A DNA stretch of 64,000 nt, from assembly GCA_029582155.1 (NCBI GenBank), contig CM055898.1, positions 26,481,245 through 26,545,244 on the forward strand. The letters run 5' to 3'. The notes beneath the pieces are model-generated. The model was not told the origin of the DNA and did no database searches. It saw nothing but the letters and a program-made list of their open reading frames with translations. The stretch's first letter is position 1, and each line of letters begins with the position of its first letter. Of the stretch, positions 3,506 through 48,326 are shown in pieces. A program made the translations under genes and the position numbers. This DNA is from Panopea generosa (lineage: Eukaryota > Mollusca > Bivalvia > Adapedonta > Hiatellidae).

Positions 3506-3576
3506 AAAATCTCATCAAACAAGAAAATAGAAAAACAACTCAGTTTCAAGGCAACACAGAAGAAAAAAGGAGTTTA

Positions 3577-10905: not shown

Positions 10906-11016
10906 TATATCTCTCATAAAGAGACTAGGCCTTGGCCTTTTTTATGGTTATTGTACATATCGTATGTGCGATTGAATATTTCTTATCATGCATGTATAAC
11001 AACAATAAACATATAA

Positions 11017-23060: not shown

Positions 23061-23617
23061 AGATAATTAATATCACATATTTGAATAAATAATATAATCT
23101 ATTTGAAATAAATGAATGAGTGATATCAACTATTTGGATAAGTGATATCACTCATTTTTCTAAAAGGTGATTATCACTTATTAAAAATGGGTGATGATTA
23201 AAATAATCATTTATTTGAATAAGTGATATCATTTATACGGTTAAAAAGTAAAATGGTACCTCACATGTATCACCTATTTGAATAATTAATATCACTAATT
23301 CATTGATTTAGGTTATATCACTTATTTGAATAGGTGATATCAGTTATTATGGTTTAATAGTAAAATTATACCCAATAGTTATCACCTTTTGAATAAGTGA
23401 TATCACTTATTCATTGATTTAGGTTACATTTCTTATTCATTTATGTGATATCAGTTGTTTTAAAAAAGGTTATATCACCTATTCGAATATGTCATATAAT
23501 TTTTAAAATAGGTGATATCACTTATTTCAATAGGTGACATCACCTATTTGATTGGGATACATTAAAATATTTCTCACCAGGATATAAATATATTAATGGA
23601 ATTAAAATGTTATTTTG

Positions 23618-24350
23618 TTAGTCTCAGTACTAACAAACTGTTGGAGGCTGATAGAGGTCATACTATGGATACTACTTAGCCTCAGTACTAATGAACTGTT
23701 AAAGGCTGATAGAGGCAATACAATGGATACTACTTAGCCTCAGTACTAATGAACTGTTAGAAGCTGATAGAGGCCATATTGTGGATACTACTTAGTCTCA
23801 GTACTAATGGACTGTTAGAGGCTGATAGAGGCCATATACTGGAAACTACTTAGTCTCAGTAAAAATGAACTGTTAGAGGCTGATAGAGGCCATATTATGA
23901 ATACTACTTAGCCTCAGTACTTATAGACTGTTAGAGGCTGAAAGAGGTCATATTATGGATACTGCTTAGCCTTAGTACTAATGAACTGTTAGAGGCTGAT
24001 AGAGGCCATATTATGTATACTGCTTAGACTCAGTACTTATAGACTGTTAGAGACTGATAAACGCCATATTATGGATACTACTTAGCCTCAGTACTAATGA
24101 AATGTTAGAGGCTGATAGAGGCCATATTATGGATACTGCTTAGCCTCAGTACTTATAGACTGTTAGAGGCTGATAGAGGCCATATTATGGATACTGCTTA
24201 GCCTCAGTACTAATGAAATGTTAGAGGCTGATAGAGGCCATATTATGGATACTGCTTAGCCTCAGTACTAATGAAATGTTAGAGGCTGATAGAGGCCATG
24301 CTATGGATACTTCTTAGCCTCAGTACTAACAAACCGTTAGAGGCTGATAG
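23618..24350 (-). repeat. 58-bp satellite, short inverted block
   Basis: About 12.6 units of 58 bp reading TTAGCCTCAGTACTAATGAA, CTGTTAGAGGCTGATAGAGG, CCATATTATGGATACTAC on the plus strand. This is the reverse complement of the large array at 42778-47596, so the block is assigned to the minus strand by that orientation. Confidence 0.95.
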
Positions 24351-24499
24351 TAGTTAATACAGATCATTCTGTTTACATAATGGCATCAATTACATTCATT
24401 AACAGTTATATTAATAAGATGCTGTTTATTACAAGAAATTGTATGTTATGATTATGTTGTTCATATCATTTTACACATAACTGTTATTTTTTAATTAAG

Positions 24500-24571
24500 G
24501 TCAAGCCATTGCCAACATGGAAAAGAAATGCCAAATATATGAAGAAACATCTGAATAGACTGGCTAAAATG
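24500..24571 (+). CDS. Exon-like segment upstream of the Ulp1 pseudogene
   Basis: A 24-codon open segment between TTTTTAATTAAG and ATG|GTTTGT encoding a very basic peptide (TWKRNAKYMKKHLNRLAKM). It ends in phase 0. The frame of the next exon that looks like Ulp1 would need a two-base carry-over, so membership in that gene is uncertain. Confidence 0.3.
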
Positions 24572-25011
24572 GTTTGTAACTAATATTTACTAATCATATA
24601 TGTCAGTGTTTAATCATTCAATGAAAACATTGCTCTGTCCGTTTTCATTTTGTACGTCTGGAAAGAAATGGAGAACAAGCATATTGTTGAATATATCACA
24701 AGTTTTGTATAATTATAATGGTTATAATTGCAATATGGATTAATTAATGATAACCTTTTATTTTCCCTTGTCCTTGTCATACATGTCATTTTTAAATGAT
24801 TGACTTGATTATTGAATTGATGAAAATTAACATTCATTGTTCATCTTGTGCAATAACACTAACTTTGTAATTGTTGATCAGATTTTAATAACAGATGGTA
24901 TATCTCTATAGTGAGATAATTAATTAATTATGAATATAAGTTTATTTTCATAAAAAAACCTTTCAGCTAGTGATATCAAGTCAACATTTATTTTTTGTTT
25001 CCTTTAAACAG

Positions 25012-25087
25012 ATATCATGTAATTCAGCAATGCCAAGGGCCCCACCAATGGCTTTCATCTACCTTCATGGAGTATTTAAAGCTACAG
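25012..25087 (+). pseudogene. Ulp1/C48-like protease, exon a
   Basis: Splice signals TTTCCTTTAAACAG and CTACAG|GTATTA bound 76 bp. The Ulp1-like frame (after one base) reads QCQGPHQWLSSTFMEYLKLQ, in the style of the N-terminal region of Ulp1 domains ahead of the GHIYVLPS segment. It ends in phase 0 and joins exon b. A second frame is also open across it, so the reading frame is inferred from the family pattern. Confidence 0.45.
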
Positions 25088-25804
25088 GTATTATTATATC
25101 AATAAGACCGTTTAATATAAAGACATGCTTAACATAGTTTTTATAAAAACACAATGCATGCATGACCAAATTCTAGCGTTAAGAAAATGAAAAAAATCAG
25201 GAATTTTATATGCTTTTCTTTGTATGAAAAACAATTAATACATACAAATCTCATTAAGTAAGAGAATCTCTATAAATGTTTTTAAAACCTTCTTTGTTTC
25301 TTCTTGAGTAATATAAAAAACTACATTTGCATGGAGTCGGTGTTGCATTGTTAGTATATTAGACCCAGGGTAGGAGAATCTTACGATTGCTTCTTCCATA
25401 GCAAATGTGTTGTCCTTGAATAAGTCAGTCTGTATATGGTCAAAATTTAATGTTATTTTTGCTTATGTTACAAAAAGTATATATTTTTATGTCCATGGTG
25501 TTGATGACCAGGAAGGCATATAGCTTTTGAACTGTAATGAAACTTGGTATACATCATCACCATCGTCTGAACACTTGCATATTGTCTAACTTTTCCGGCC
25601 AGATTATTATGTAAGGAGTTATGCCTCTGTATAGTGTAATTGTATTCCTCAATGGGTAGTCATGTATTATAAACGCATTAAATGTTATTTATTTGTATTT
25701 CAATTCTTCAGTACAATTTTATCTGAACTAAACCTACTGGTAGTATAAAAACATTATAATATTCCATAAGGGTTGTAAATTTGTATTTTATGTTTCAACA
25801 TAAG

Positions 25805-25933
25805 GTGTTATATGCCTTTCTAAGGTGCCTAATGGTGGAGAGGAACACAGCTGGAGAAGGTCACATTTATGTGCTGCCATCTATCTGGCATCATTGTGGG
25901 AGGCTGGTTGTTCTGATGCTTGGTTATACTGAA
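25805..25933 (+). pseudogene. Ulp1/C48-like protease, exon b
   Basis: 43 codons from the acceptor CAACATAAG. VERNTAGEGHIYVLPSIW is typical of the strand preceding the catalytic core of Ulp1-like proteases in mobile elements. The donor GAA|GTGTAA is weak, and a TAA follows if it is not used. The last 15 codons may be out of frame through a one-base change, as an alternative frame there reads WEAGCSDAWLY. Confidence 0.55.
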
Positions 25934-26301
25934 GTGTAAGTATTATTATACTCGATCAAACTGATTGCGTTTTGCTGTAAGTATCTTCCTACAACAGGTC
26001 AGCAAGTCTGATTCAAAATATGGAAAGACTGGTTTCAATAACTGGATCAGAAGAGTAGTTGATGGTCATCATTTTAAAGAAAAGTAAAGGATTGGTTAAC
26101 CAGGTTTCATAATGAACCTAGACTTGGCGTGATGTGTCTGTTTACTTATTTTTTCATTGTTATGGTAAAACTCATAAATTGTAATCATATAATATTTTTT
26201 ATTAAATTTTGTTGAATGCTTACCTTTATTTTGTTTTGACAAATCATGACATTGTGTACAATGCGTTTTACTTTGTATTTTTATTCTTGTTACATTATCA
26301 G

Positions 26302-26453
26302 GTAAAGATATCCATGTACAATTGGGTTTTCCTACCTGTGAATGTCAATGGAAACCACTGAGTGCTGCTTGCTGCAGTCGTCAACAAAAAAAAACGTCAT
26401 CATTCTGGACTCAATGTCCTCAAAACCGAACAGGGTGCTGATTGAAAATGGAG
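26302..26453 (+). pseudogene. Ulp1/C48-like protease, exon c (catalytic His and Asp)
   Basis: The acceptor ATTATCAG and donor GGAG|GTATGA bound 152 bp. The frame reads NWVFLPVNVNGNH, then a TGA exactly where the family has Trp, then VLLAAVVN. After a one-base slip in an A9 run comes VIILDSMS. NH supplies the catalytic His and LDSM the catalytic Asp of C48 proteases. One nonsense change and one homopolymer frameshift make this exon non-functional as written. Confidence 0.75.
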
Positions 26454-26699
26454 GTATGAATTATATGCAGATGAATAATATTTCAGCAGCTGTTTGCTTT
26501 TAGTAAGTATATGTTGGTTGATTCTAATTAAAAGCACATATAGCCGACTTGTGTTTAACATTAAGTAAATTGCTTTACAGAATGCAATTTTGTCATGTAC
26601 CTTTTTAAGAAGTTAGCAATCTGAATGTTTATGTTTTTTTATGAAGTCATATTTACAAACAAAATGATTCTTTATTTTGGTAATATTTATCAACTTAAG

Positions 26700-26814
26700 G
26701 AGATTTATGAAAATAAGGGCTGATGCTACCGGTGAGTCCCTGGACTGGTTTATTGGGTCACATACCAGCAGCAAGCAGAAAGACGGGTCAAGCTGTGGAT
26801 CTTTTGTACTCCTT
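26700..26814 (+). pseudogene. Ulp1/C48-like protease, exon d (catalytic Gln and Cys)
   Basis: From the acceptor CAACTTAAG the frame, after one base, leads to KQKDGSSCGSFVLL, the oxyanion Gln and nucleophile Cys signature of Ulp1-like proteases. The donor CTT|GTAGAT lies in phase, and splicing to 27555 avoids the TAA at 26825. Together with exon c this completes the His-Asp-Gln-Cys set in the correct order, the strongest evidence for the family. Confidence 0.75.
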
Positions 26815-27554
26815 GTAGATTGTTAAATCATGTCTCCCAGTATCAACTGCATTAAAGCTGTCATTATTTCATTTATTATAAATTTGGTAATAATCAATAA
26901 ATAGTTAATGTTAATTAACATATTAATATAAGGCAGATTGAAATTTAGCTTACTCAAATATCACTGAGCATCAAGCTTGATTTGTAAGAAATTGTTTCAC
27001 ATTCGCTGTAAAAATTATTATTTTAACAAACAGAAGCAGTTTTACCAATGTTGACTGTATGTTTATTGTTTATATGTCGCCATATAAACTTGCACAGGGT
27101 TTGCTTGGAATTGTTGTTTTCAACATAGCTTGACAAGTTGAAGCGAAACTTGCTGTAGATATATGGATCATTATGTATTGTCTTCCAGATGTTTCAGCAT
27201 ATACGTCATGTAATCATATAAGCATCACGCTGTTAATATATTTTGAGGTCCATTTGGCACCAGATGGGCTGTTGCTTAAATGAATTGCTTTTTATTTTCA
27301 TTAGACTTTACATTGTAATGCATCATTAAAGTCATTTAAAATATAATTGCAAAGCAGGTAAGGTAAATTAATTGAATGTTTGAAATTTTATAAGAAACAG
27401 TAAATGAGGTTTTAAATTTGCAACCAGTAAGAACATAATTATACTTAATATAATAACTACCAAATAAAACCATGTTTTAAAGAATCAGATTACATGCATT
27501 GTAATGTCTACTATACTTACTTAAGTAAATGGCTTATTTTAATATTTTTTCTAG

Positions 27555-27830
27555 AATGCAATGGCCTTAATGCATGGGTGTGACTTAAAAGGATTGACCA
27601 AACAAGACGGCATCAGCATGCGAAGTTATGTTGTTTACACACTTCTGCGTCATGCCACTGAACCACTGTCCCAGAAGACTATTTGAAGGCTGGTGAAGTC
27701 AGGTCACAAAAAGTCCTGGATTTGTTGTGGAAACTGCGAAAGATGAATCCACTTCACATGTGCTGGGATAACGCAGGTCCCAAAGAAAGATTTTATATGC
27801 ACTGTGTGCCACGTATAGTATTTTTGAACT
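27555..27830 (+). pseudogene. Ulp1/C48-like protease, last exon
   Basis: The acceptor ATTTTTTCTAG joins in phase to exon d and continues NAMALMHGCDLKGLTKQDG then MRSYVVYTLLRHA, matching the C-terminal helices of Ulp1 domains. A frameshift follows near 27660; in the next frame coding continues with EDYLKAGEVRSQKVLDLLWK and a short Cys/His-containing tail up to about 27820. The frame fades into SINE B tail and 60-bp satellite. The gene's true 3' end has been lost. Confidence 0.65.
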
Positions 27831-27861
27831 TTTCCTTTATACATTTGTATTGTTGAATTTA

Positions 27862-27891
27862 TTTGATTTTATGTCATCAAGGGCTAACAGA
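27862..27891 (-). mobile_element. SINE B tail fragment at satellite edge
   Basis: TTTTATGTCATCAAGGGCTA and the next 8 bases match the SINE B tail on the minus strand (compare 11485-11515). The 60-bp satellite begins at the next base. Confidence 0.6.
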
Positions 27892-30800
27892 TGTATACCA
27901 TAACAGTTGTGTTCACTGAGGGTGACAGTGGTATGTAAGTTTGACATAATATGTATACCATAACAGTTGTAAGTTTGACATAATATGTATACTGTAATAG
28001 TTGTGTTCACTGAGGGTGACAGTGGTATGTAAGTTTGACATAATATGTTTACTGTAATAGTTGTGTTCACTGAGGGTGACAGTGGTATGTAAGTTTGACA
28101 TAATATGTATACCATAACAGTTGTGTTCACTATGGGTGACAGTGGTATGTAAGTTTGACATAATATGTATACTGTAATAGTTGTGTTCACTGAGGGTGAC
28201 AGTGGTATGTAGGTTTGACATAATATGTATACCATAACAGTTGTGTTCACTGTGGGCGACAGTGGTATGTAAGTTTGGCATAATATGTATACTGTAATAG
28301 TTGTGTTCACTGAGGGTGACAGTGGTATGTAGGTTTGACATAATATGTATACCATAACAGTTGTGTTCACTGTGGGCGACAGTGGTATGTTAGTTTGGCA
28401 TAATATGTATACTGTAATAGTTGTGTTCACTGAGGGTGACAGTGGTATGTAAATTTGACATAATATGTATACCATAACAGTTGTGTTCACTGAGGGTGAC
28501 AGTGGTATGTAGGTTTGACATAATATGTATACCATAATAGTTGTGTTCACTGAGGGTGACAGTGGTATGTAAGTTCGACATAATATGTATACTGTAATAG
28601 TTATGTTCACTGAGGGTGACAGTGGTATGTAAGTTTGACATAATATGTATACCATAATAGTTGTGTTCACTGAGGGTGACAGTGGTATGTAAGTTTGACA
28701 TAATATGTATTACATAATAGTTGTGTTCTCTGAGGGTGACTGTGGTGTGTAAGTTTGACATAATATGTATATTGTAATAGTTGTGTTCACTGAGGGTGAC
28801 AGTGGTATGTAAGTTTGACATAATATGTATACCGTAATAGTTGTGTTCACTGAGGGTGACAGTGGTATGTAGGTTTGGCATAATATGTATACCGTAATAG
28901 TTGTGTTCACTGAGGGTGACAGTGGTATGTTAGTTTGACATAATATGTATACTGTAATAGTTGTGTTCACTGAGGGTGACAGTGGTATGTAAGTTTGACA
29001 TAATATGTATACTGTAATAGTTGTGTTCACTGAGTGTGACAGTGATATGTAGGTTTGACATAATATGTATACTGTAATAGTTGTGTTCACTGAGGGTGAC
29101 AGTGGTATGTAAGTTTGACACAATATGTATACCATAATAGTTGTGTTCACTGAGGGTGACAGTGGTATGTAAGTTTGACATAATATGTATACCATAATAG
29201 TTGTGTTCACTGAGGGTGACAGTGGTATGTAAGTTTGACATAATATGTATTACATAATAGTTGTGTTCTCTGAGGGTGACTGTGGTGTGTAAGTTTGACA
29301 TAATATGTATATTGTAATAGTTGTGTTCACTGAGGGTGACAGTGGTATGTAAGTTTGACATAATATGTATACCGTAATAGTTGTGTTCACTGAGGGTGAC
29401 AGTGGTATGTAGGTTTGACATAATATGTATACCGTAATAGTTGTGTTCACTGAGGGTGACAGTGGTATGTTAGTTTGACATAATATGTATACTGTAATAG
29501 TTGTGTTCACTGAGGGTGACAGTGGTATGTAAGTTTGACATAATATGTATACTGTAATAGTTGTGTTCACTGAGTGTGACAGTGATATGTAGGTTTGGCA
29601 TAATATGTATACTGTAATAGTTGTGTTCACTGAGGGTGACAGTGGTATGTAAGTTTGACACAATATGTATACCATAATAGTTGTGTTCACTGAGGGTGAC
29701 AGTGGTATGTAAGTTTGACATAATATGTATACCATAATAGTTGTGTTCACTGTGGGTGACTGTGGTATGTAAGTTTGACATAATATGTATACTGTAATAG
29801 TTGTGTTCACTGAGGGTGACAGTGGTATGTAAGTTTGACATAATATGTATACCATAATAGTTGTGTTCACTGAGGGTGACTGTGGTATGTAAGTTTGACA
29901 TAATATGTATACTGTAATAGTTGTGTTCACTGAGGGTGACAGTGGTATGTAAGTTTGACATAATATGTATACCATAACAGTTGTAAGTTTGACATAATAT
30001 GTTTACTGTAATAGTTGTGTTCACTGAGGGTGACAGTGGTATGTATGTTTGACATAATATGTATACCATAACAGTTGTGTTCACTGTGGGTGACAGTGGT
30101 GTGTAAGTTTGGCATAATATGTATACTGTAATCGTTGTGTTCACTGAGAGTGACAGTGGTATGTAGGTTTGGCATAATATGTATACTGTAATAGTTGTGT
30201 TCACTGAGGGTGACAGTGGTATGTAGGTTTGACATAATATGTATACCATAACAGTTGTATTCACTGTGGGTGACAGTGGTATGTAAGTTTGGCATAATAT
30301 GTATACTGTAATAGTTGTGTTCACTGAGGGTGACAGTGGTATGTAAATTTGACATAATATGTATACCCTAACAGTTGTGTTCACTGAGGGTGACAGTGGT
30401 ATGTAAGTTTGACATAATATGTATACCATAATAGTTGTGTTCACTGAGGGTGACAGTGGTGTGTAAGTTTGACATAATATGTATACTGTAATAGTTGTGT
30501 TCACTGAGGGTGACAGTGGTATGTAAGTTTGACATAATATGTATACCATAATAGTTGTGTTCACTGAGGGTGACAGTGGTATGTAAGTTTGACATAATAT
30601 GTATTACATAATAGTTGTGTTCACTGAGGGTGACTGTGGTGTGTAAGTTTGACATAATATGTATATTGTAATAGTTGTGTTCACTGAGGGTGACAGTGGT
30701 ATGTAAGTTTGACATAATATGTATACCGTAATAGTTGTGTTCACTGAGGGTGACAGTGGTATGTAGGTTTGGCATAATATGTATACCGTAATAGTTGTGT

Positions 30801-33097
30801 TCACTGAGGGTGACAGTGGTATGTAGGTTTGACATAATATGTATACCATAACAGTTGTGTTCACTGTGGGTGACAGTGGTGTGTAAGTTTGGCATAATAT
30901 GTATACTGTAATAGTTGTGTTCACTGAGGGTGACAGTGGTATGTAAATTTGACATAATATGTATACCATAACAGTTGTGTTCACTGAGGGTGACAGTGGT
31001 ATGTAAGTTTGACATAATATGTATACCATAATAGTTGTGTTCACTGAGGGTGACAGTGGTATGTAAGTTTGACATAATATGTATACTGTAATAGTTGTGT
31101 TCACTGAGGGTGACAGTGGTATGTAAGTTTGACATACTATGTATTACATAATAGTTGTGTTCACTGAGGGTGACTGTGGTGTGTAAGTTTGACATAATAT
31201 GTATATTGTAATAGTTGTGTTCACTGAGGGTGACAGTGGTATGTAAGTTTGACATAATATGTATACCGTAATAGTTGTGTTCACTGAGGGTGACAGTGGT
31301 ATGTTAGTTTGACATAATATGTATACTGTAATAGTTGTGTTCACTGAGGTTGACAGTGGTATGTAAGTTTGACATAATATGTATACTGTAATAGTTGTGT
31401 TCACTGAGTGTGACAGTGATATGTAGGTTTGGCATAATATGTATACTGTAATAGTTGTGTTCACTGAGGGTGACAGTGGTATGTAAGTTTGACACAATAT
31501 GTATACCATAATAGTTGTGTTCACTGAGGGTGACAGTGGTATGTAAGTTTGACATAATATGTATACCATAATAGTTGTGTTCACTGTGGGTGACTGTGGT
31601 ATGTAAGTTTGACATATAATATGTATACCATAATAGTTGTGTTCACTGTGGGTGACAGTGGTATGTAAGTTTGACATAATATGTATACTGTAATAGTTGT
31701 GTTCACTGAGGGTGACAGTGGTATGTAAGTTTGACATAATATGTATACCATAATAGTTGTGTTCACTGTGGGTGACTGTGGTATGTAACTTTGACATAAT
31801 ATGTATACTGTAATAGTTGTGTTCACTGAGGGTGACAGTGGTATGTAAGTTTGACATAATATGTATACCATAACAGTTGTAAGTTTGACATAATATGTTT
31901 ACTGTAATAGTTGTGTTCACTGAGGGTGACAGTGGTATGTATGTTTGACATAATATGTATACCATAACAGTTGTGTTCACTGTGGGTGACAGTGGTTTGT
32001 AAGTTTGACATAATATGTATACTGTAATAGTTGTGTTCACTGAGAGTGACAGTGGTATGTAGGTTTGACATAATATGTATACCATAACAGTTATGTTCAC
32101 TGTGGGTGACAGTGGTATGTAAGTTTGGCATAATATGTATACTATAATCGTTGTGTTCACTGAGGGTGACAGTGGTATGTAGGTTTGGCATTATATGTAT
32201 ACTGTAATAGTTATGTTCACTGAGGGTGACAGTGGTATGTAAGTTTGACATAATATGTATACCATTACAGTTGTGTTCACTGAGGGTGACAGTGGTATGT
32301 AGGATTGGCATAATAATTACACTGTAATAGTTGTGTTCACTGAGGGTGACAGTAGTATGTAAGTTTGACATAATATGTATACTGTAATAGTTGTGTTCAC
32401 TGAGGGTGACAGTGGTATGTTAGTTTGACATAATATGTATACCATAACTGTTGTGTTCACTGAGGGTGACAGTAGTATGTAAGTTTGACATAATATGTAT
32501 ACTGTAATAGTTGTGTTCACTGCGGGTGACAGTGGTATGTAAGTTTGACATAATATGTATACCATAATAGTTGTAAGTTTGATATACTATGTTTACTGTA
32601 ATAGTTGTGTTCACTGAGGGTGACAGTGGTATGTATGTTTGACATAATATGTATACCATAACAGTTGTGTTCACTGTGGGTGACAGTGGTATGTAAGTTT
32701 GACACAAAATGTATACTGTAATAGTTGTGTTCACTGAGGGTGACAGTGGTATGTAGGTTTGACATAATATGTATACCATAACAGTTGTGTTCACTGTGGG
32801 TGACAGTGGTATGTAAGTTTGGCATAATATGTATACTGTAATCGTTGTGTTCACTGAGGGTGACAGTGGTATGTAGGTTTGGCATAATATGTATACTGTA
32901 ATAGTTGTGTTCACTGAGGGTGACAGTGGTATGTAGGTTTGACATAATATGTATACCATAACAGTTGTGTTCACTGAGGGTGACAGTGGTATGTAAGTTT
33001 GACATAATATTTATAACATAATAGTTGTGTTCACTGAGGGTGACAGTTGTTTGTAGGATTGGCATAATATGTATACTGTAATAGTTGTGTTCACTGA
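27892..33097 (+). repeat. 60-bp tandem satellite
   Basis: About 87 units of 60 bp. Landmarks are TTTGACATAATATGTATA, CCATAACAGTTGTGTTC, ACTGAGGGTGACAGTGG and TATGTAAG. Because 60 is divisible by 3 and two minus-strand frames lack stops, frames up to 364 codons arise with a 20-residue period; I do not call them genes. Units 28681-29220 and 29221-29760 form a nearly identical 540-bp pair (9 units each). A truncated unit recurs near 27970, 29980, 31875 and 32570. Confidence 0.98.
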
Positions 33098-33867
33098 AAG
33101 CAGCAGCGATTTGTTTAAATTATTTTTGTAAGCTTAAATAAATTTCAACATCAAATATAACACTATTTATGTTTCATTCATGATTTAAAATTAAATAATT
33201 GAAATATTCATGCTCCATACAGCTTATATGAAATTTCTTTGGACCAATAGGAAATCACTTACAGTATAAATAATCAAAGTGTGTGGCAATGGAATACAGT
33301 ATCATTTTATATTATGTATAAGTTGTAATATGTATTATTAAAATACTAGTTATACTCGTACTAATGATTGAAATGCTTGATTATTTAATTACAACTTTCA
33401 TGATTACTATTTGATTGTTTGTGAAGTGAAAATAATTATAATATACCATAAAAGCTACGGCAAATAAGGATGGTCGTGATATTATGTTTATCATGGAAAT
33501 TGCTTTCAATATTCAATGTTTATACAGCAATACAAGCAATATTTATGTAAGTAATTTATAACTGTGTTGTTTATTCTTATACATCCTATACATTATGAAC
33601 AAAGTTAATAAATCCCAAGTCTGCCTTTCCCTACTGGGTGTTCTAGCTGTTTCGTTATCATTTCCAACTTATTTGAAATCATTAAACTGTAATAAAACTA
33701 TTAAGTTATCCATCCATGCAAGATGAAATTATTCATTTGACAATGTGTTAAAATAACACTTAAGCACCACCGCTGATCATACACAAAACTGATCTACATG
33801 TGAAAATAGTTAAGAATCAACCTTATACAGTATATTTTTTAATGACGATTATCCACACATCAGATAT
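33098..33867. other. AT-rich spacer between satellites
   Basis: No exon, RNA gene or repeat could be supported. Confidence 0.5.
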
Positions 33868-36800: not shown

Positions 36801-38130
36801 TAACAGTGTATCGTTACTGAGACTGGCTATAACTCGTACTCTGTGTTATACAGATATGCCATAGAGCCTGCGTAATGAGGCTAAGTTGGACCCATATTGT
36901 GGACCATGTTAGCCTCTAACTGTGTATCGTTACTGAGACTGGTTATAGCTCGAACTCTGTGTTATACAGATATTCCATAGAGCCTCCGTAACGAGGCAGT
37001 AAGTTGGACCCATATGGTGGACCATGTTAGCCTCTAACAGTGTATCGTTACTGAGACTGGTTATAACTCCAACTCTGAATTATACAGATATTCCATAGAG
37101 CCTGCGTAATGAGGCTAAGTTGGACCCATATTGTGGACCACGTTAGCCTCCAACAGTGTATCGTTACTGAGACTGGTTAAAAGTCATAATCTGTGTTATA
37201 CGGATATGCCCTAGAGCCTGCGTAATGAGGCTAAGTTGGACCCATATTGTGGACCATGTCAGCCTTTAGCATTGTATCGATACTGATATTGGTTATAATT
37301 CGAACTCTGTGTTATACAGATATTCCATAGAGCCTCCGTAATGAGGCTAAGTTGGACCCATATTGTGGACCATGTTAGCCTCTAACTGTGTATCGTTACT
37401 GAGACTGGTTATAACTCGAACTCTGTGTTATACAGATATTCCATAGAACTTCCGTATTGAGGCTAAGTTGTACCCATATTGTGGACCATGTTAGCCTCTA
37501 ACAGTGTATCTTACTGAGACTGGTTATAACTTGAACTCTGTGTTATACAGATATATTCCATAGAGCCTCCGTATTGAGGCTAAGTTGGACCCATATTGTG
37601 GACCATGTTAGCCTCCAACAGTGTATCGTTACTGAGACTGGTTAAAAGTCATACTCTGTGTTATACAGATATTCCATAAAGCCTCCGTAATGAGGCTAAG
37701 TTGGACCCATATTGTGGACCATGTTAGCCTCTAACTGTGTATCGTTACTGATACTGGTTATAACTCAGACTCTGCGTTATACAGATATTCCGTAGAACCT
37801 CCGTATTGAGGCTAAGTTGGACCCATATTGTGGACCGTGTCAGTCTCTGTGTATCGTTACTGAGACTGGTTATAACTCGAACTGTTATACAGATATTCCA
37901 TAGAACCTCCGTAATGAGGCTAAGTTGGACCCATATTGTGGACCATGTTAGCCTCTAACTGTGTAACGTTACTGAGACAGGTTTAAACTCATATTTTGTG
38001 TTTTACAGATATTCCATAGAGACTCCGTAATAAGGCGAAGTTATTCCCATATTGTGGACAATGCCGTCCTCTAACTGTGTATCGTTACTGAGACTGGTTA
38101 TAACTCGAACTCCGTGTTATATAGTTATTC
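33868..38130 (+). repeat. 116-bp tandem satellite
   Basis: About 36 units, mostly 116 bp (118 where GATATATTCC replaces GATATTCC). Landmarks are GTTGGACCCATATTGTGGAC, CATGTTAGCCTCTAACAGTG, TATCGTTACTGAGACTGG, ACTCTGTGTTATACAGATA and CCGTAATGAGGCTAA. The first units are strongly diverged. One half of the unit aligns to the 58-bp satellite, and 116 is twice 58. Confidence 0.97.
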
Positions 38131-38734
38131 TATTGATCCAACATAATAACTTAAGTACTGGTCGATTTCCAGTGCATGGCAAATGGACACAAAACATGTT
38201 AGTGGTACAGAGAATAAATAACACCAATCAATGATAACTTGTTTGATTTTAAAGACTCCTTTTTATTAAGTAATATACATGTTGTTATATAGCTCATTTG
38301 ACAAAATGTTAAACAAAACATAAAACCATATATAATATAATTAATATTAAAGAAACAACCATGTGATATTTGACTAATAGTTAATTTATGTTTACATTTA
38401 TCAAGCAATATACAGTGTAGCAATGTTATATAACAGCATCCAAATTAATTATGCAATGCAGCTATAACTAGTGGAAATAAGAGTGCTGTATATTGTATTC
38501 TGGCATATCCACTTGCGGATTTTGATCAGAAAACGAAATTTCCTGTAGTGGAATGTTGTGATTGAGCTGCTCATTAGCGTATAACGGATCTGATTTTGTG
38601 CTTTTCGATAGATGTTCATGAATTTTACATTGATTGTTATGATCGTCACCCGTCTAACTGACCACTCTTAATTCTTAACATCCATTTTGTTTAATATGCC
38701 TATATTTGCCATCATATTATGGACAACTCCTTAA
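38131..38734. other. Gene-free stretch
   Basis: No supported exon. The short open frames on either strand have no splice or domain support. Confidence 0.4.
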
Positions 38735-39064
38735 ATGAATTATATTCCATTACTCAGAACAAAACATTCCACTTGCAGAATATTTTGACCATTTCAGTCT
38801 TTATCAGCTTTGTATTGAGTCATCCATGCATAGAATTACGTGACATAGGACGATCACATGATAAAAGGAGAGCATTATACACTGAAGGTAACTCCAGTCC
38901 CTCATCCTGGTTGAGTGACACCTCTCCTTGTATCACATGATCATCCTATGTCACGCGATATTATGCATGAATGATCTAGCACAAAGCGAATCCATGACTA
39001 TGTGATACGGTCGAAATATTCTGCAAGTCAAATGTTTTGTTCTGAGTATTGGAATATAATTCAT
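38735..39064. mobile_element. 330-bp foldback (MITE-like) element
   Basis: Long imperfect inverted arms of about 145 bp. ATGAATTATATTCC opens the element and its reverse complement closes it. CTCAGAACAAAACATT, TTGCAGAATATTT and GTGACATAGGA also pair between the arms. The middle is about 40 bp. No target duplication is obvious. Its right end lies 56 bp from the stop codon of the KDZ-type transposase. Confidence 0.8.
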
Positions 39065-39119
39065 CGAAGATGTTAAATCCAGAGCAAGAAACCAAACTAT
39101 ATTGTTATATACAACTTAT

Positions 39120-39379
39120 TTACCGTAACTTGGAATATACAGAAGACGGACGCTTAAACATGGACATGTATTTAATTGGCAGATCTGGCTTGAGAAACGA
39201 CAAGGAAACCGTACTCCGAAACCACAAAAATAATTTTAAATGGTTGGTGAAGTTATCTACATTCATGTACGACAGCATTGACTTGAACTTTTTAAGAGTT
39301 GAGTTTCTCTGTTCTGCAACCTGCGTATTTAGGTCCTTGTATTGCATATACATATTTAGGTTATACCCCAAATGACAGC
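39120..39379 (-). CDS. KDZ-type transposase, last exon
   Basis: The minus-strand acceptor CATTTCTTTTTCAG is followed by an open exon to TAA at 39120. Motifs are GCHLGYN, LNTQVAEQRNSTLKKFKS, SYMNVDNF and LFLWF. In Kyakuja-Dileera-Zisupton transposases this pattern directly follows the DRFHW-NH segment, and the Glu of AEQ is the likely third acidic residue. The exon joins the one at 40003 in phase (GTC-G plus GC). This is the C-terminus, about 86 codons, with no internal stop. Confidence 0.8.
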
Positions 39380-40002
39380 CTGAAAAAGAAATGACATTAA
39401 AAACATTTAACACATCTTTAACTTTAAAGAAAAGCCAAATATTTACCCTAATCTGAAGAAATTTTTTTGAAATATTGTCCCCATTTCTAGAATGAAAAAC
39501 TGTTCACGACTTCCTAAAATTCATACTAAATTTGTTATTTAACTGATTTGATGTTATTACTCACAAACGGAAATAATCAGTAAAATTTCAATTATAGAAT
39601 ATCAATCTTAAAAAGTTAACTTTATCACAAAAGAAAATGAGCTCATGTGACTGTAATCATTATTATATTAGTGGTAATAAAACATTATATACAAACATTA
39701 CAGCTGATACTACCACTTACACTAGTACAGCCATATCATCATAAATAGTATTCAAGGTATTAAGAAGATACTTCACATTGCTATGTGTTTAATTGTTTAA
39801 TTGCTAAATGCTGACAATAAAAATAATCTATATTGCGAAAAATTATGCCTTAGAAAAGAAGTGTGTAACCAGTGATGATATAGTTTTTATAAAAATCACT
39901 ACCAGTTCAAGATGAAAAAAGAAAGATTAATACTTAAAAAGTAAAGAGAGAAGGACAAATGGATTCTTAACTAAACACAAATTATGTATACTTCGCACTT
40001 AC

Positions 40003-40125
40003 CGACATGGTTGCACCAATGGAATCTGTCCACAACAAACCATGTGTCTCTAAAAAAGACCAGATCTCTATTCAACGCAAAATTGTGCAGATTGCAAGCA
40101 TTGTGATACACAACAAGTTTTGGTG
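40003..40125 (-). CDS. KDZ-type transposase, central exon
   Basis: Acceptor AATAATTTTCAG, donor GTCG|GTAAGT, 123 bp, no stop. It encodes KLVVYHNACNLHNFALNRD and then FVVDRFHWCNH, the central signature of KDZ transposases (the usual start is YDNAC, so Asp is replaced by His in YHNAC). If that Asp is catalytic, the enzyme is dead even where the frame is intact. Confidence 0.85.
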
Positions 40126-40614
40126 CTGAAAATTATTAAATTTTAAATTTGATTACCTTTTAATCATATAAAAATTTAAAAAAATCATCTGAGTAGGTGG
40201 TTTTACATTAATTTTCATGAAATGCTTTTAACAAATGAGGTTCTTATTGAAGGCAAAAAATTGTCAATAATAGTTCTCTTATGCATAAAATATAATGGTT
40301 ACAATGTCAAAAATAAAGAATAAGCTACACAACAGTTTACAGTAACCCTTATACTTTTACATTAAATTTCTTGGTTGAATATATTTTATTTTATGATGCT
40401 TAGAACATTGTTTATACAAACTACAAAATGAAAAGGGATCAGATTAAACACACTTATTAAGTTCATTAATCTTCTTATAAGCTTTTAGATAATGTAACTT
40501 GCTTATACAGAAAATAAAAAAGTGCAAATTTTTTAAGAAGATAGTTAAGTTTTTTTTGTATGAATCTGTTAGCCAACAAACTTATCATATGTATCTAAAA
40601 CCAAATAGCATTAC

Positions 40615-40692
40615 CGGTATGGAATCTTGTCCTGAGTATTGAGAAAGGGACATTTGGCGACTCTTCCATTAACTGGAACCCATAGCAAATCC
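40615..40692 (-). CDS. KDZ-type transposase, exon before the signature
   Basis: A 78-bp exon between TTTTTATTTCAG and ACCG|GTAATG. It reads ICYGFQLMEESPNVPFSILR and then TRFHT, which in this family lies immediately upstream of the APKLVVYDNAC region. Phases match on both sides. In related proteins I expect extra residues near ESPN, so a few codons may be missing. Confidence 0.75.
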
Positions 40693-40884
40693 CTGAAATA
40701 AAAATTACAATAAACAAGGTTAAGATGACCATTACATGCTTAACACAAACACTTTCAGAAGTCATACTATTCATGTAAGTATTTGTAAATAACAATTTTT
40801 CGGCTGTACATTTCTAAGACTTCCATTCTGCAGTTAAAACCTTTTATCTAGTTTTATAAAAAAGAAAGTTATGTATTAAACCGG

Positions 40885-41185
40885 TACCTAACATATGAAC
40901 AAGAGCTGTCAGAAGACAACAAAGCTCGCCTCTGGGTGTCTTAAGTCCAAAAAGGGCCATAAGTGTGGCAAAATGCAACCCAGAGTTATGGTTCTTGTCT
41001 GTGTGTGTTCCATTGATGATGGTGAACACACATGTGATGGTTCATTCACATCCAATGAGTGGTTGCATAGATATCTGAAACTTGTATGCAAAAATTTAAC
41101 CTGGGTATCTACAGACGACGACAACACCGGGGTCATGACAATAGCTCTCCTTGGACTTGACGAGTTAAAAAGTGAACCAAAATAA
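40885..41185 (+). mobile_element. Dispersed bivalve-type repeat inside the KDZ intron
   Basis: It begins CAAGAGCTGTCAGAAGACAA and includes GGGCCATAAGTGTGGCAAAA, CAGAGTTATGGTTCTTGTCT and a GACGACGACAAC run before the end. From memory this arrangement is a very common dispersed repeat in bivalve genomes. Frames of about 96 codons exist on both strands but reflect the repeat. Confidence 0.55.
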
Positions 41186-41717
41186 TTAATTTCAAATTTA
41201 AACATTTAATGAGCATGTTTATGCCTTTGTTGAAAAAATAACAACAGAAGTAAGCAAAGAATAGTATACTCAGCAGAAATAAAAAAGTACCACTTATTCT
41301 ATTACCAGGACTCTTTTCATATGTACTATAGTTAATCAATTGTTGATTCAGTAATTAACATCCTCATAGCTTGATTATGTTAACAATATTTAACTGTGAC
41401 ATGGTAAAAATAACAACATTCATTGAATTTCTTATTTGATTATCAACACTATCACCATGCATATTAAGGTATTGAATAATATGCAAAGAAGATTATCATG
41501 TACGTGCAAACAGTGATCCTGCCTACCCGTTGCCTTACATACAAGCGAACTGAAACTGATCAGTTGCATCAACAGTGCATTAGTACTCAATCAATAAAGA
41601 AGTTGATACAGAGCTCTTAAAAATTAAAAGAACTAATACATTTTTGAGGTGTTGACCTATTATTTATTTTTAATAAATATATAAACATGATGAAAAATTA
41701 AAAGAATTGCTTCATAC

Positions 41718-41955
41718 CTTCAATAAACCACTATTAACATCAAAATCTTGAACCATAAATGCAAGAAAATTGTCATCTACAGGAACAACTGTTTTATGCT
41801 GACATAGACAAAGTTTGTAGAAATCAACATCTTCAGATTGGCTTGAAGTGACAGTCATTGAAGATTGATTTTCAACAAATGTTTGGGTTGACCAACTAGA
41901 ATCTGTTTTTTCTTCAGTACAGATTTTTTTGGTTGTTGACGGTTTTCTTGCAATA
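41718..41955 (-). CDS. Probable N-terminal exon of the KDZ-type gene
   Basis: The acceptor TTTATTTATCGCAG and donor AAG|GTATGA bound 238 bp with an open frame. A Ser/Thr/Lys-rich, probably disordered first half is followed by YKLCLCQHKTVVPV, which suggests a Cys/His zinc site. It ends in phase 0, while the 40692 exon needs a one-base carry-over, so at least one exon between them is missing or unrecognised. Assignment to the same gene is by position and strand. Confidence 0.5.
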
Positions 41956-42777
41956 CTGCGATAAATAAAAAAAATATTGCAATTTGTATGCATAGTTTGC
42001 TCATCAGATTCCGAATACTGTATTTTATGTAATTTGATATGGCCACATTATCATCATAAGATGGATTCATAGACTCTATTTTTAAAATGACCAACATAAA
42101 CTAACTGTTGACAAGATAAGAAAAGATACAATTAGGATATGGTGTACGAGACAATTTTGAAACAGTTGCTCTAAAACAGGTTGTTTTACCATTTAATGTC
42201 ATTAAAAGCTATATTCAATTATTTTGATAACTGTAAGGAATGTAGGGGCATGGTCCTCCCCGACCCTCTCACCACTAGGACGGGGAGACTAAATTTGTTC
42301 ACACAAATGGGTGGCTGAAAAAATTTAATGTACAAAATTATCCAGAAATACAGTTGCTTTATAGACTATTTAGGTTAATTTATTTTTTCAATACCAATAC
42401 ATTTTTTAAAAAAAGAAGACTTTTCTTAAATAATAATTATTGTAAAGTACAGTAATTCAATGAATTTTAAAAATCATAAAATAGATTTGATATTTTATGA
42501 CCATTTCTTACTTGCCATTGCTTAATTATACCACAATCACTTCACAATAAAGGAATTTGAATACTAACAGACCTGAAAAAGAAGTAATAGATATATGTGT
42601 ACAATATACTGACAGATAACTAATACTGATCATCACTACTTAATGGCAATACTACCCAAAATATAAGACATTATGACAATCAAATCAAATTAACATGACC
42701 AATATAACATGCAAAACATTTACAGCAAGTGGAATATTTGTAAAATATCCATACAATCTAATGCATTACCAAAATTG
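41956..42777. other. Gene-free stretch before the 58-bp array
   Basis: AT-rich, with no supported exon. A GC-rich island (CCCCGACCCTCTC) near 42260 stands alone. Confidence 0.4.
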
Positions 42778-45700
42778 CTGAGGCTAACTATTACAAATAT
42801 TATGGACCAGTCTATAACAGTTCATTGGTACTAAGGCTTAGAAGTATCCACAGTAAGGCATCTACCAGCCTATAACAGTTCATTACTACTCAGGCTAAGA
42901 AGTATCCATAATATGGCCTCTATCAGTTCATTAGTACTGGACTAAGTAGTATCCATAATATGGCCTCTATCAGCCTAAAACAGTTCATTAGTACTGAGAC
43001 TAAGTAGTATCCATAGTACAGACTCTATCAGTTTCTAACAGTTCATTAGTACTGAGGCTAACTAGTATCCATACTATATCCTCTATCAGCCTGTAACAGT
43101 TTGTTAGTACTGAGGCTAAATAGTATCCATACTATGGCCTCTATCAGCCTCTAAGAGTTTGTTAGTATTAAAGCTAAGAAGTGTTCATAGTATGGCCTCT
43201 ATCAGCCTCACACAGTTTGTTAGTACTGAGGATAAGCAGTATCAATAGTATAGCCTCTAACAATTCATTAGTTCTGAGGCTTAGTAGTATCCATAATATG
43301 GCCTCTATCAGCCTCTAACAGTTCATTAGGACTGAGGCTAAGTAGTATCCATAGTATGACCTCTATCAGACTCTAAAAGTTGTGGTACAGAGGCTAAGTA
43401 GTATCCATAGTATAGCCTCTAACAGTTCATTAGTACTGAGGCTAAATAGTATCCATAATATGGCCACTACCAGTTTCTGACAGTTCATTAGTACTGAGAC
43501 TAAGTAGTATCCATAATATGGCCTCTATTAGCCTCTAACAGAACATTAGTACTGAGGCTAAGTAGTATCCAAAGTATACCCTCAAACAGTTTATTAGTTC
43601 TGAGACTAATTAGTATCCATAGTATGGACTCTATAAGCCTCTAACAATTCCTTAATACTGAGGCTAACTACTATCCATAATATGGCCTTTACCAGCCTCT
43701 AACAGTCCATTAGTACTGAGGTTAATTAGTATCAATAATATGGCCTCTTTCAGCCTCAAACAGTCCATTAGTACTGAGGCTAAGAAGTATCCATAATATG
43801 GCCTCTATCAGTCCATTAGTACTGAGGCTAAGTAGTATCCATACTATAACCTCTAACAGCCTCTAACAGTCCATTAGTACTGAGGGTAAGTAGTATCCAT
43901 AGTATAGCCTCTATCAGCCTCAAACAGTTCATTAGTTCTGAGACTAAGTAGTATCCATAGTATGGACTCTATGAGCCTCAAACAGTAAATTAGTACTGAG
44001 GCTAAGTAGTATCTATAGTATGGCATCGATCAGCCTCTAATAGTCCAGTTGTACTGAGACTAAGTAGTATCCATAATAAAGCCTCTAACAGTTCGTTAGT
44101 ACTGAGGCTAAGTAGTATCCATAATATGGCCTCTATCAGCCTCTAACAGTCCAGTAGTACTGTGGCTAAGTAGATCCATAATAAAACCTCTATCAGCCTC
44201 TAACAGTTTGTAAATACTGAGGCTAAGTAGTATCTATAGTATGGCCTCTATCAACCTCTAACAGTTCATTAGTTCTGAGACTAAGTAGTATCAATAGTAT
44301 GGACTATATCAGCCTCTTACAGTTAATTCATACAGAATCTAAGTTGTATCCATAATATGGCCTCTATCAGTTCATTAGTACTGAGGCTAAGTAGTTTCCA
44401 TAGTATGGCCTCTATCAGCCTCTAAAAGTTTATTAGCACTGAGACTAAGTAGTATCCATAATACGGCCTTTATCAGCCTCTAACAGTTTATTTGCACTGA
44501 GACTAAGTAGTTTCCATAATATGGCCTCTATCAGCCTCTTACAGTCAATTAGTACTGAGACTAAGTAGTATCCATAATATGGCCTCTATCAGCCTCTTAC
44601 AGTCAATTAGTACTGAGACTAAGTAGTATCCATAATATGGCCTCTATCAGCCTTTAATAGTTCATTAGTTTTGAGGCTAAGTAGTATCCATAATATGGCC
44701 TTCATCAAATTCTAACAGTTTATTAGCACTGAGACTAAGTAGTATCCATAATATGGCCTCTATCAGTCTCTTACAGTCAATTAGTACTGAGACTTAGTAG
44801 CATCCATAATATGGCCTCTATCAGCCTCTTACAGTCAATTAGTATTGAGACTAAGTAGTATCCATAATATGGCCTTTATCAGCCTCTAATAGTTCATTAA
44901 TACTGAGGCTAAGTAGTATCCATAATATGGCCTTTATCAGCCTCTAACAGTTAATAAGTACTGAGGCTAAATAGTATCTATAGTATGGCATCTATCAGCC
45001 TCTAACAATCCAGTTGTACTGAGGCTAAGTAGTATCAATAATATGGACTCTATAAGCCTCTAACAGTTTGTAAGTACTGAGGCTAAGTAGTATCCATAGT
45101 ATGGCCTCTATCAGCCTCTAACAGTACATTAGTACTGAGGCTAAGTAGTATTTATAGTATTGTATCTATCAGTCTCTTAGAGTCCAGTTGTACTGAGGCA
45201 AAGTAGTATCAATAATAAAGCCTCTATCAGCCTCTAACAGTTCGTAAGTACTGAGGCTAAGTAGTATCCATAGTATGGCCTCTATCAACCTCTTACAGTT
45301 CATTAGTACTGAGACTAAGTAGTTTCAATATTATGGACTCTATCAGCCTCTTACAGTTCATTCGTACTGAGGCTAAGTTGTATCCATAATATTGCCTCTA
45401 TCAGTTCATTAGTACTGAGGCTAAGTAGTATCCATAGTTTGGCCTCTATCAGCTCCAAACAGTCTATTAGTACTGAAGCTAATTAGTATCCATAATATGG
45501 CATCTATCAGTTCATTAGTACTGAGATTAAGTAGTATCCATAACATGGCTTCTATCAGTTCATTTGTACTGAGGCTAAGTAGTATCCATAGTATGGCATC
45601 TATCAGCCTAAAACAGTCCATTAATACTGAGGCTAAGTAGTATGCATAATATGGCCTCTATCAGACTCAAACAGGCCATTAGTATGGGGGCTAAGAAGTA

Positions 45701-47596
45701 TTCACAATATGGCCTCCATCAGTTCATTAAGTACTGAGGCTAAGTAGTATCCATAATATGGCCTCTATTAGTCTCTAACAGTTCATTAGTACTGAGACTA
45801 AGTAGTATCAATAATATTGCCTCTATCAGTCTCAAACAGTTTATTAGCACTGCGACTAAGTAGTATCCATGATATGGCCTCTATCAGCCTCTAATAGTTC
45901 ATTAGTACTGAGGCTAAGTAGTATCCATAATATGGCCTTGATCAGCCTCTAATAGTTCATTAATACTGAGGCTAAGTAGTATCCATAATATTGTCTTCAT
46001 CAGCCTCTAACAGTTCATTAGTACTGAGACTTAGTAGTATCCATAATATGGCCTCTATCAGTTCATTAGAACTGAGGCTAAGTAGTATCCATAACATGGC
46101 CTCTATCAGCCTCTAATATCCATTAGTACTGAGGCTAACTAGTATCCATAGTATGGCCTCTATCAGCCTCAAATAGTCCATTAGTTCTGAGGCTAAGAAG
46201 TATCCATAATATGGCCTCTATCAGTTCATTAGAATTGAGGCTAAGTAGTATCCATAACATGGCCTCTATCAGCCTAAAAAAGTCCATTAGTACTGAGGCT
46301 AACTAGTATCCATAGTATGGCCTCTATCAGCCTCAAATAGTCCATTAGTTCTGAGGCTAAGTAGTATCCATAATATGGCCTTTATCAGCCTCTAACAGTC
46401 CATTAGTATTGAGGCTAAGTAGTATCCATAATATGGTCTCTATCAGCCTCAAACAGTCCATACGTACTGAGGCTAAGTAGTATCCATAATATGGCCTCCA
46501 TCAGCCTCTAACAGTCCATTAGTACTGAGGCTAAGTAGTATCCATAATATAACCTCTATCAGCCTCTAACAGTCCATTAGCACTGAAACTAAGTGGTATC
46601 CATAATATGGCCTCTATCAGCCTCTTACAATTAACTAGTACTGAAACTAAGTAGTATCCATAATATGGCCTCTATCAGCCTCTAAAAGTTCATTAGTACT
46701 GAGACTAAGTAGTATCCATAATATGGCCTCTATCATCCTCTATCAGTTCATTAAACCTGAAGCTTAGCAGTATCCATAACATGGCCTCTATCAGCCTCAA
46801 ATAGTCCATTAGTACTGAGGCTAACTAGTATCCATAGTATGGCCTCTATCAACCTTAAATAGTCCATTAGTACTGAGGCTAACTAGTATCCATAACATGA
46901 CCTCTATCAACCTCAAAAAATCCATTAGTTCTGAGGCTAAGTAGTATCCATAATATGGCCTCTATCACTTCATTAGAACTAAGGCTAAGTAGTATCCATA
47001 ACATGGCCTCTATCAGCCTCAAATAGTCCATTAGTACCGAGACTAACTAATATCTATAGTATGGCCTCTATCAGCCTCAAATAGTCCATTGGTTCTGAGG
47101 CTAAGTAGTATCCATAATATGGCCTCTATCAGTTCATTAGAACTGAGGCTAAGTAGTATCCATAACATGGCCTCTATCAGCCTCAAATAGTCCATTAGTA
47201 CTGAGGCTAATTAGTATTCATAGTATGGCCTCTATCAACCTCAATTAGTCCATTAGTTCTGAGGCTAAGTAGTATCCATAATATGGCGTCTAACAGTTCA
47301 TTAGTAGTGAGGCTATATAGTGTAACGGGTATGGCCTCTATCAGCCTCTAACAGTTCATTGGTATTGAGGCTATATAGTGTAATCGATATAGCCTCTATC
47401 AGCCTCTAAAAGTTCATTAGTACCGAGTCTAAGTAGTATCCATGGTATGGCCTTTATCAGCCTCAAATAGACCATTAGTTCTGAGGCTAAGTAGTATCCA
47501 TAATATGGCCTCTATCAGCCTCTAAGAGTTCATTAGTACCAAGTCTAAGTAATACCCATAATATGGCCTATTAGCTGATTAGTAATTAGGCTAATA
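42778..47596 (+). repeat. 58-bp tandem satellite, main array
   Basis: About 83 units of 58 bp. Landmarks are GTAGTATCCATAATATGGCC, TCTATCAGCCTCTAACAGTT and CATTAGTACTGAGGCTAA. Some units drop about 12 bp (CTATCAGTTCATTAG variants). Three-unit higher-order groups of about 160 bp, marked by TTCATTAGAACTGAGG, recur near 46065, 46225, 46965 and 47127. The short block at 23618-24350 is the same family inverted. Confidence 0.97.
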
Positions 47597-48326
47597 GAAC
47601 TTTACGTTTGTATTGTTTTATAATAAAATTCATTATTAACAGTGAAGAAACATTTAATACGTTTTGTTGTAGAAATAACCTCATTCCTGCATTGCTCCAT
47701 CTGTCATAAACGTTGATGATCAGTGTTGTCCGAGCGCCTGTTTTAGATGAAAAAATAAAGACCGCTCCCTTCATTTTATATTTTATTACAAAAACCTATT
47801 GTATTTAAACTTATATAGTTGTTTCATTTTAATAGTTGTGAAAAAGTATTTAATAACAATATATATTTATATTTCATTATCATTTGCATAAGAATTCAGG
47901 TTAAAAACCGCAGAGGCTAAGATTGAGGCTAAGGCCCGTTTTCCGGGCTGCTACAATACCTGAGGCATATCAGCCGCCATTTTCTCTCTTATTATTATCT
48001 CCAACATTAAAGAGCGAGAGGCGTGGTTTCTCAAAGTAGGCGGCATCTAACAACCTGTCTCTAGTAGTCAACTTAGATTCGTAGTCAACAAATAATCCTG
48101 GCCCAATATGCCACATTTTTTATTAAAGGGAGACAACTCTTACGATTTTTTCCTAGGTACGGTATAAGACCCGGTAACCGGGGACCATTGTCGAAGTAGA
48201 CGAATGCCGGATTATAGTTACGGAAAAATGACGTAGATCGCATAATTTATGTTTTTTGCACTTTTGTCCAACCGGGGACGAACCCGGTTGACAGGTGTGT
48301 ATTCATACGAATGTCCCCGGTTGACA

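Follow-up and report, generated by a model that had tools for sequence, protein, structure and literature searches.

Known transposon systems and the element in the window

Several groups of DNA transposons share features with an element found in a 64-kb stretch of the Panopea generosa genome (the window; C5:26481245-26545244), in which arrays of 58-, 60- and 116-bp units lie between terminal inverted repeats (TIRs). Within the Kyakuja-Dileera-Zisupton (KDZ) superfamily, Zisupton has been called multi-exonic (PMC9297572) and is described as having TIRs and target site duplications (PMC12730594); the same paper reports duplications of 8 bp for Zisupton and one Dileera family. Dada elements generate 6-7-bp duplications and target specific sequences (PMC3706591). 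In CACTA/Spm elements, repeated subterminal motifs are described to which a TNPA-like protein or the transposase would attach (PMC4219821). Satellite-like tandem repeats are known within the inverted ends of the Tetris foldback element of Drosophila virilis (PMC4079207), and the Cg_HINE Helentrons of the Pacific oyster contain satellite-like arrays that have spread as parts of a DNA transposon (PMC7492417).

The element in the window is probably of the KDZ type, a variant of that superfamily, and shares with KDZ elements its TIRs, a predicted multi-exon transposase gene and probably a PF18758-like domain. It differs in its size of ~28 kb, in duplications of 7 instead of 8 bp, in its four tandem arrays, in a further gene with a PHD finger at its end and in a target motif at fixed distance. 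Its 7-bp duplications and its targeting at one spacing are similar to those of Dada; however, Dada targets small nuclear RNA and transfer RNA genes, whereas the targets of this element share an ATGGCG motif within otherwise different flanks, and its predicted transposase is KDZ-like. The subterminal repeats of CACTA/Spm would be a parallel to its 58-bp arrays (PMC4219821), but CACTA/Spm elements, as described there, have CACTA ends and 3-bp duplications, in contrast to the GAGGTAT...ATACCTG ends, 7-bp duplications and kilobase-long tandem arrays found here. Tetris is described as apparently nonautonomous and as a source of long satellite-like arrays, whereas the 60-bp arrays stay with the present element among the matches listed. 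The Cg_HINE Helentrons belong to another class, unlike an element with TIRs and 7-bp duplications. The same two features ruled out a Helitron reading of the TC...CTG end.

Organization of the element and its copies in the genome

A search of the genome (1.47 Gb in 39 contigs, labeled C1, C2 and so on) showed that the arrays are not independent satellites: they are fixed modules of one giant TIR DNA transposon that makes 7-bp target duplications and presumably moves by cut and paste. The transposon spans positions 10524-47962 of the window, of which 10571-19881 belong to a nested repeat element of ~9.3 kb; without this insert its size is ~28 kb. From left to right, the inverted 58-bp array is followed by gene L, the 60-bp array, the 116-bp array, gene R and the second 58-bp array. 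Arrays were delimited with Tandem Repeats Finder (TRF).

10571-19881, unstranded: nested, unrelated repeat element with 73-bp arrays, interrupting the left end
19882-23617, plus strand: left subterminal region with a 22-bp palindromic array (TRF), also in other copies
23618-24350, minus strand: array A, built of the 58-bp unit in the orientation opposite to that of array D (TRF)
24351-27860, plus strand: region L, a decayed multi-exon gene ending in a PHD finger (from copies, open reading frame pieces and the PHD match)
27968-33097, plus strand: array B, 60-bp unit, 85 monomers in the window (TRF)
33098-34012, unstranded: spacer M between arrays B and C, 95-98% identical in other copies
34013-38130, plus strand: array C, 116-bp unit, read as a diverged dimer of the 58-bp unit (TRF)
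38131-42807, minus strand: region R, a decayed multi-exon gene (from copies and reading frames)
42808-47569, plus strand: array D, 58-bp unit, 85 monomers in the window (TRF)

Array A is the reverse complement of array D, and their consensus is identical over seven copies. The first-pass annotation of this DNA had described three large arrays within 20 kb that seemed to descend from one monomer. The arrays themselves are real, as TRF found them, but they number four, the first 58-bp array being inverted with respect to the last, and they lie together as modules of one transposon that keep the same order in many copies.

Copies recur across the host genome, the young ones being 95-98% identical. 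For region R (38130-42800) the matches listed include copies of 96-98% identity and older ones of ~84-93%, and for region L copies of 95-98% and older ones of ~82-94%. Six further copies, on C28, C9, C6, C3, C4 and C13, were compared; among the matches listed, the order A-L-60-M-116-R-D was seen in the first four, and from L onward in the C4 copy. Comparison by eye of the best 150 of 236 matches to the 60-bp array showed that all their loci also carry region L, and within that set, in a comparison not aimed at 58/60 intermediates, no 60-bp array was seen outside the element. Array sizes vary several-fold among otherwise very similar copies: in seven copies, monomer counts range from 3 to 85 for the 60-bp unit, from 36 to 74 for the 116-bp unit and from 97 to 141 for the 58-bp unit, the last being lower bounds, as some of the stretches end inside a 58-bp array. 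Independent satellites were rejected because the same order and shared termini are found on many chromosomes together with target duplications.

Two copies lie tail to tail on C13, and this entire inverted pair appears to be duplicated ~125 kb away (36154-36205 kb and 36278-36331 kb). A 3.8-kb array of the 58-bp unit at C3:75243974-75247822 has no region L match, and none among the region R matches listed; it may represent a free satellite or else a deletion derivative. The 22-bp palindromic array on the left side of the element (GTGATATCAC core, 20436-23551 by TRF) is shared with other copies.

Termini and target site duplications

10517-10523, unstranded: left target site duplication AGGCATA, 7 bp
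10524-10570, plus strand: left terminus, TIR, beginning GAGGTATAATAGCAGC; the same terminus was recognized in 26 of 33 loci
47570-47962, plus strand: right terminal region, its TIR containing two GAGGCTAAG and ending in GCTGCTACAATACCTG
47963-47969, unstranded: right target site duplication AGGCATA, 7 bp

The right end at 47962 is defined by 18 of the 43 matches listed, which stop at query position 403-404, and was recognized with at most five mismatches in 28 of 30 loci. The TIRs are imperfect (GAGGTATAATAGCAGC on the left, CAGGTATTGTAGCAGC on the right). The left end of the window copy lies at 10524, since the separate 73-bp-array element occupies 10571-19881: where other copies pass from AACGTTAG into CC|TCTGTTG, the sequence of the window is interrupted and resumes at 19882. 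Position 19882 had itself looked like a common boundary and was discarded as the left end, as other copies continue beyond it. The nested element also contains 95/168-bp composite tandem repeats, and the boundary on its right side, near 19879, is also found at other loci.

An exact 7-bp duplication was found in 10 of 14 copies with both flanks (9 of 13 when one duplicate is dropped); among the other four, C18:350 matches at 6 of 7 positions, the C9 duplication is shifted by one base, and C18:468 and C2:157 have none. This count leaves out the pairing of C6:5731 with C6:5478, whose flanks are 2.5 Mb apart and in opposite orientation. An 8-bp duplication was considered and rejected, as flank comparison gives 7 bp. 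The sites of the window and C9 copies are related (86% in the left flank, 95% in the right) and were counted as one because independent insertion and duplication are indistinguishable there.

Preferred insertion at a fixed distance from a target motif

47974-47983, minus strand: YY1-like/ATGGCGG motif (CCGCCATTTT; CCAT ends 18 bp from the element end)

Flanking sequences were compared after removal of duplicates. The 30 right-flank loci gave 22 flanks, two having no recognizable end and six being duplicates (C9 and C7, counted with the window, and C5:8592, C6:5534, C6:6342 and C13:36304); the 33 left-flank loci gave 20, after removal of five without an end, two unreliable matches and six duplicates. 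Two of these seven left-flank failures (C5:58661 and C6:54806) were stretches at guessed positions. In 15 of the 22 right flanks, including the window (47963-47983) and loci L024, L025, L037, L040, L044 and L048, CCAT ends at a distance of exactly 18 bp from the element; within the first 40 bases it occurs at a different offset only once. On the left, ATGGCG starts exactly 18 bp from the end in 3 of 20 flanks and is found nowhere else in the 40 bases; C2:9051 is a clean copy with a duplication, and the other two have rearranged right ends. The spacing equals the 7-bp duplication plus 11 bp from CCGCCAT/ATGGCGG. Seven right flanks have no exact CCAT at offset 18: C4:6016 reads CCGT, C1:4634 reads CCTT at a degenerate end, C18:4683 lacks a matching duplication, C13:36179 adjoins a further copy, C2:1574 borders on the end of another element, C2:9054 has the motif on the left instead, and C7:1538 has none. 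Insertions thus favor one spacing from the CCGCCAT/ATGGCGG motif. In a second KDZ family of this genome, neither of the two right flanks has CCAT at offset 18.

Read outward, the motif is AANATGGCGG, which we take to resemble both the YY1 motif and an initiator methionine context. The element itself or a YY1-like host factor may read it. When left and right flanks are joined, the reading frame stays open over the 11-18 codons available in 6 of 10 non-duplicate sites, about the chance level (open: window, C3, C6:526, C5:864, C6:553 and C5:603; closed: C21, C16, C18:350 and C2:905). The joined site of C2:9051 reads ATGGCGTAA. In the window, a minus-strand open reading frame (10271-10523, MPSATQPDPIFFKSEEELNYY...) adjoins the left end and, joined to the right flank, begins MAADMPSATQ.

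Genes L and R and the probable assignment to KDZ

27702-27815, plus strand: PHD finger of gene L, with an in-frame TGA at 27744-27746 in the window copy
40003-40125, minus strand: predicted KDZ-like transposase exon (PKLVVYxNACNLHNF...FHWCNHV; splice signals)
39120-39379, minus strand: predicted last KDZ-like transposase exon (GCHLGYNLN...LNTQVAEQRNSTLKKFK...; splice signals)

The PHD finger of gene L matched Pfam PF00628 with an E-value of 1.1e-5 and 25.8 bits (cut-off 24), X being placed at the stop codon. A piece of gene L resembling Ulp1 had no Pfam match. In region R the last two exons, 40125-40003 and 39379-39120, were resolved and are predicted to join in frame across consensus GT-AG signals. 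The joined exons matched genes of the same genome that had been found with PF18758 (28 identical residues over 94 amino acids, 52.8 bits), and L067, one of the two among 13 PF18758 matches above the cut-off, showed 27 of 94 identical residues and 50.4 bits. PF18758 was also the sole Pfam family for the first of these exons in another copy. Ten open reading frame pieces of R gave no Pfam family, apart from a chance match (0.16) of a plus-strand frame to a baculovirus capsid model, and a PDB sequence search returned chance-level matches only. It is likely from these comparisons that region R encodes the C-terminus of a KDZ-like transposase. The assignment is likely and not proven, because the 94-amino-acid match stands against a Pfam score below the cut-off and the lack of a PF18758 match within the element. 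Exon positions suggest that genes L and R converge on the 60- and 116-bp arrays and that each seems to begin beside a 58-bp array. Within region R, ~330 bp (38735-39064) match their own reverse complement at 74%.

The second KDZ family is represented by two loci, C10:59.78 Mb (59774000-59793000) and C8:4.11 Mb (4100000-4118000), which are alike over more than 14 kb at 96-98% identity. At both loci examined, the gene is flanked by a 38-bp array and, on the opposite side, by a 162-166-bp array. This is a hint that arrays may be common in the KDZ elements of this genome, although the two loci could be a plain segmental duplication.

Relationship among the 58-, 60- and 116-bp units

The 58- and 116-bp units are homologous by several tests. 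Their alignment score of 66 was reached in none of 400 dinucleotide shuffles (best 47, both strands), the column-profile comparison gave 44.7 with a maximum of 28.7 in 360 permutations, and hidden Markov models (HMMs) of the two units matched each other's array reciprocally (best E-values ~2e-5 and 1e-4). Ungapped comparison of the 116-bp unit with two head-to-tail 58-bp units gave 68 of 116 matches in the best phase and 43 in the next; by successive quarter, 16, 10, 20 and 22 of 29 positions matched. Shifted by 58 against itself, the 116-bp unit showed 48 of 116 matches, the sole shift between 40 and 76 above 45. Since one phase gives 68 of 116 against 43 and the quarters are uneven, the 116-bp unit is best read as an in-phase 58-bp dimer, one half of which has diverged strongly. 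The dimerization proposed in the first-pass annotation is supported by that single phase and the peak at shift 58.

For the 58- and 60-bp units, the score was reached in 5 of 400 dinucleotide shuffles with the array D consensus and 12 of 400 with that of array A, in 13 of 200 and 7 of 200 mononucleotide shuffles, and in 3, 3 and 5 of 300 column-block permutations. A one-strand test gave 9, 8 and 0 of 1000 for three consensus variants; the variant with 0 comes from one divergent C5 copy, in which the AACAGTT base prevails by only 8 monomers to 6. No HMM match was found between these two units in the corresponding orientation, and the TAAGT part of their match is absent from the consensus of five divergent copies (GCAGGT or GTAGGT instead). 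The 60- and 116-bp units behaved like chance (130 of 400 dinucleotide shuffles; 357, 862 and 208 of 1000 for the one-strand variants), and in the column-profile comparison their reverse-strand score (20.2) exceeded the forward one (15.3), which counts against a link of the 60-bp unit. Degenerate monomers beyond the arrays were not found with HMMs (E above 0.9 in all).

Hence, the single ancestral monomer suggested earlier holds for the 58- and 116-bp units (0 of 400 shuffles), and for the 60-bp unit a derivation from that monomer is suggestive only (0-3% of dinucleotide shuffles against the 58-bp unit). The check proposed with that suggestion, by shuffled consensus and profile method, came out positive in both parts for 58 and 116; for 58 and 60 the shuffles were suggestive and the HMMs gave nothing. 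As to the strings said to be shared, CATAATATG, AACAGTT, ACTGAGG and AGTAGTAT are all present in the 58-bp unit. In the 60-bp unit, AACAGTT stands in 14 of the 84 window monomers and AATAGTT in 65, and the 116-bp consensus across the unit junction reads GCCTCTAACTGT and not GCCTCTAACAGT.

Proposed role of the arrays and alternative explanations

The right TIR contains GAGGCTAAG twice, and the left TIR contains TAGCCTC and TTAGCCTC. Exact GAGGCTAAG occurs in the 64-kb window only in arrays A (8), C (28) and D (34) and at the right end (2); its orientation in arrays A and D matches the nearer end. The 58-bp arrays share TGAGGCTAAG with the right terminal repeat, and a 10-mer common to the terminal 60 bp and the 58-bp unit was reached in 7 of 2000 dinucleotide and 2 of 2000 mononucleotide shuffles. 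In the 116-bp unit the TIR-shared motif is better conserved than the rest (0.978 versus 0.943). The two mirror-inverted 58-bp arrays, each between an end and the neighboring gene, would thus be subterminal arrays of the right-TIR motif (TGAGGCTAAG), offering many putative binding sites for the element's own DNA-binding protein. They would grow and shrink through unequal exchange or slippage; between the convergent genes, the internal array of 116 bp and perhaps that of 60 bp would represent offshoots. That the 58-bp arrays serve as such binding sites is possible, though somewhat doubtful. More tentatively still, a KDZ-type giant transposon may integrate at a base-exact distance from a YY1-like AANATGGCGG by means of a host factor or its own motif-reading protein, its subterminal satellites being amplified transposase-binding sites born from the TIR, so that array and TIR evolution would be coupled.

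Taken as a whole, the reading of the arrays as modules of a giant, probably KDZ-type TIR transposon, with 58/116 homology, a role for the subterminal arrays and motif-spaced insertion, is held with good confidence. Several observations weigh against it. The duplications are of 7 bp, as compared with the 8 bp reported for Zisupton and Dileera (PMC12730594), and 2 of the 14 two-flank copies (C18:468 and C2:157) have no duplication. The joined window exons of R have no Pfam match, the PF18758 match of the exon from another copy is below the cut-off (E-value 0.027), and the 13 PF18758 matches scored across the genome all fall outside the giant element. In the 58-bp unit the TIR-shared motif shows no constraint peak (conservation 0.913 versus 0.910 for the rest), the gapped alignment of TIR and unit is insignificant (472 of 2000), the whole 393-bp right end reached 60 of 2000, and the left end shares only an 8-mer (224 of 2000).

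It could be supposed that one ancestral monomer was amplified in place into three local satellites without any transposon, as the 58- and 116-bp units are homologous and the 60-bp unit possibly so (0 of 1000 for one of the three variants). This is highly improbable: arrays and unique spacers recur in order on many chromosomes with shared termini and target duplications, and the 60-bp arrays among the matches listed sit at loci with region L. A transposon whose arrays have no part in transposition, being tolerated slippage products or promoter or spacer sequence of the two genes that hitch-hikes along, comes close to an even call. The several-fold size differences among very similar copies, the lack of a constraint peak at the motif in the 58-bp unit and the internal position of the 116- and 60-bp arrays agree with it, while the mirror symmetry of arrays A and D, their common consensus and the 10-mer shared with the right TIR argue against it.

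That the element belongs not to KDZ but to a superfamily such as Dada, in which duplications measure 6-7 bp and targets are specific, is rather improbable. The 7-bp duplications and single fixed target spacing do resemble Dada (PMC3706591), but the 94-amino-acid match spans two exons and is to KDZ genes of the same genome, and PF18758 is the only, if weak, Pfam family for the exon in a search not aimed at Dada. The motif spacing could also reflect promoter or nucleosome architecture at gene starts, for instance through PHD-directed reading of a histone mark and not recognition of a DNA motif; gene L carries a PHD finger, and the ATG frame of the window runs on into a minus-strand open reading frame (10271-10630). 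We regard this as unlikely, as the spacing is base-exact, with 15 of 22 flanks at offset 18 and one CCAT elsewhere in 40 bases, and the 6 of 10 open joined sites are at about the chance level.

Neighboring features and significance

To the left of the element, 51-bp tandem repeats with a common GTGTATGTGTGTCAAGGTAAG core are located at 112-1545 and 3568-3992 (TRF). To the right, long open reading frames at 51219-56709 resemble by eye a long interspersed nuclear element, with zinc-knuckle, endonuclease, reverse transcriptase and RNase H segments.

A limited literature search, by title and start of abstract of the papers listed, found no description of such an element, which is not proof of absence; the words KDZ and Zisupton are absent from PMC10294476 on bivalve transposons and PMC6431247 on giant transposons. 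With the transposon recognized, apparent satellites become testable parts of a mobile element, which illustrates how families of repeats that differ in period can originate and move as a group. Among the results, the target rule most deserves to be pursued: if confirmed, the fixed ATGGCG spacing would make its targeting unusually strict among eukaryotic DNA transposons.

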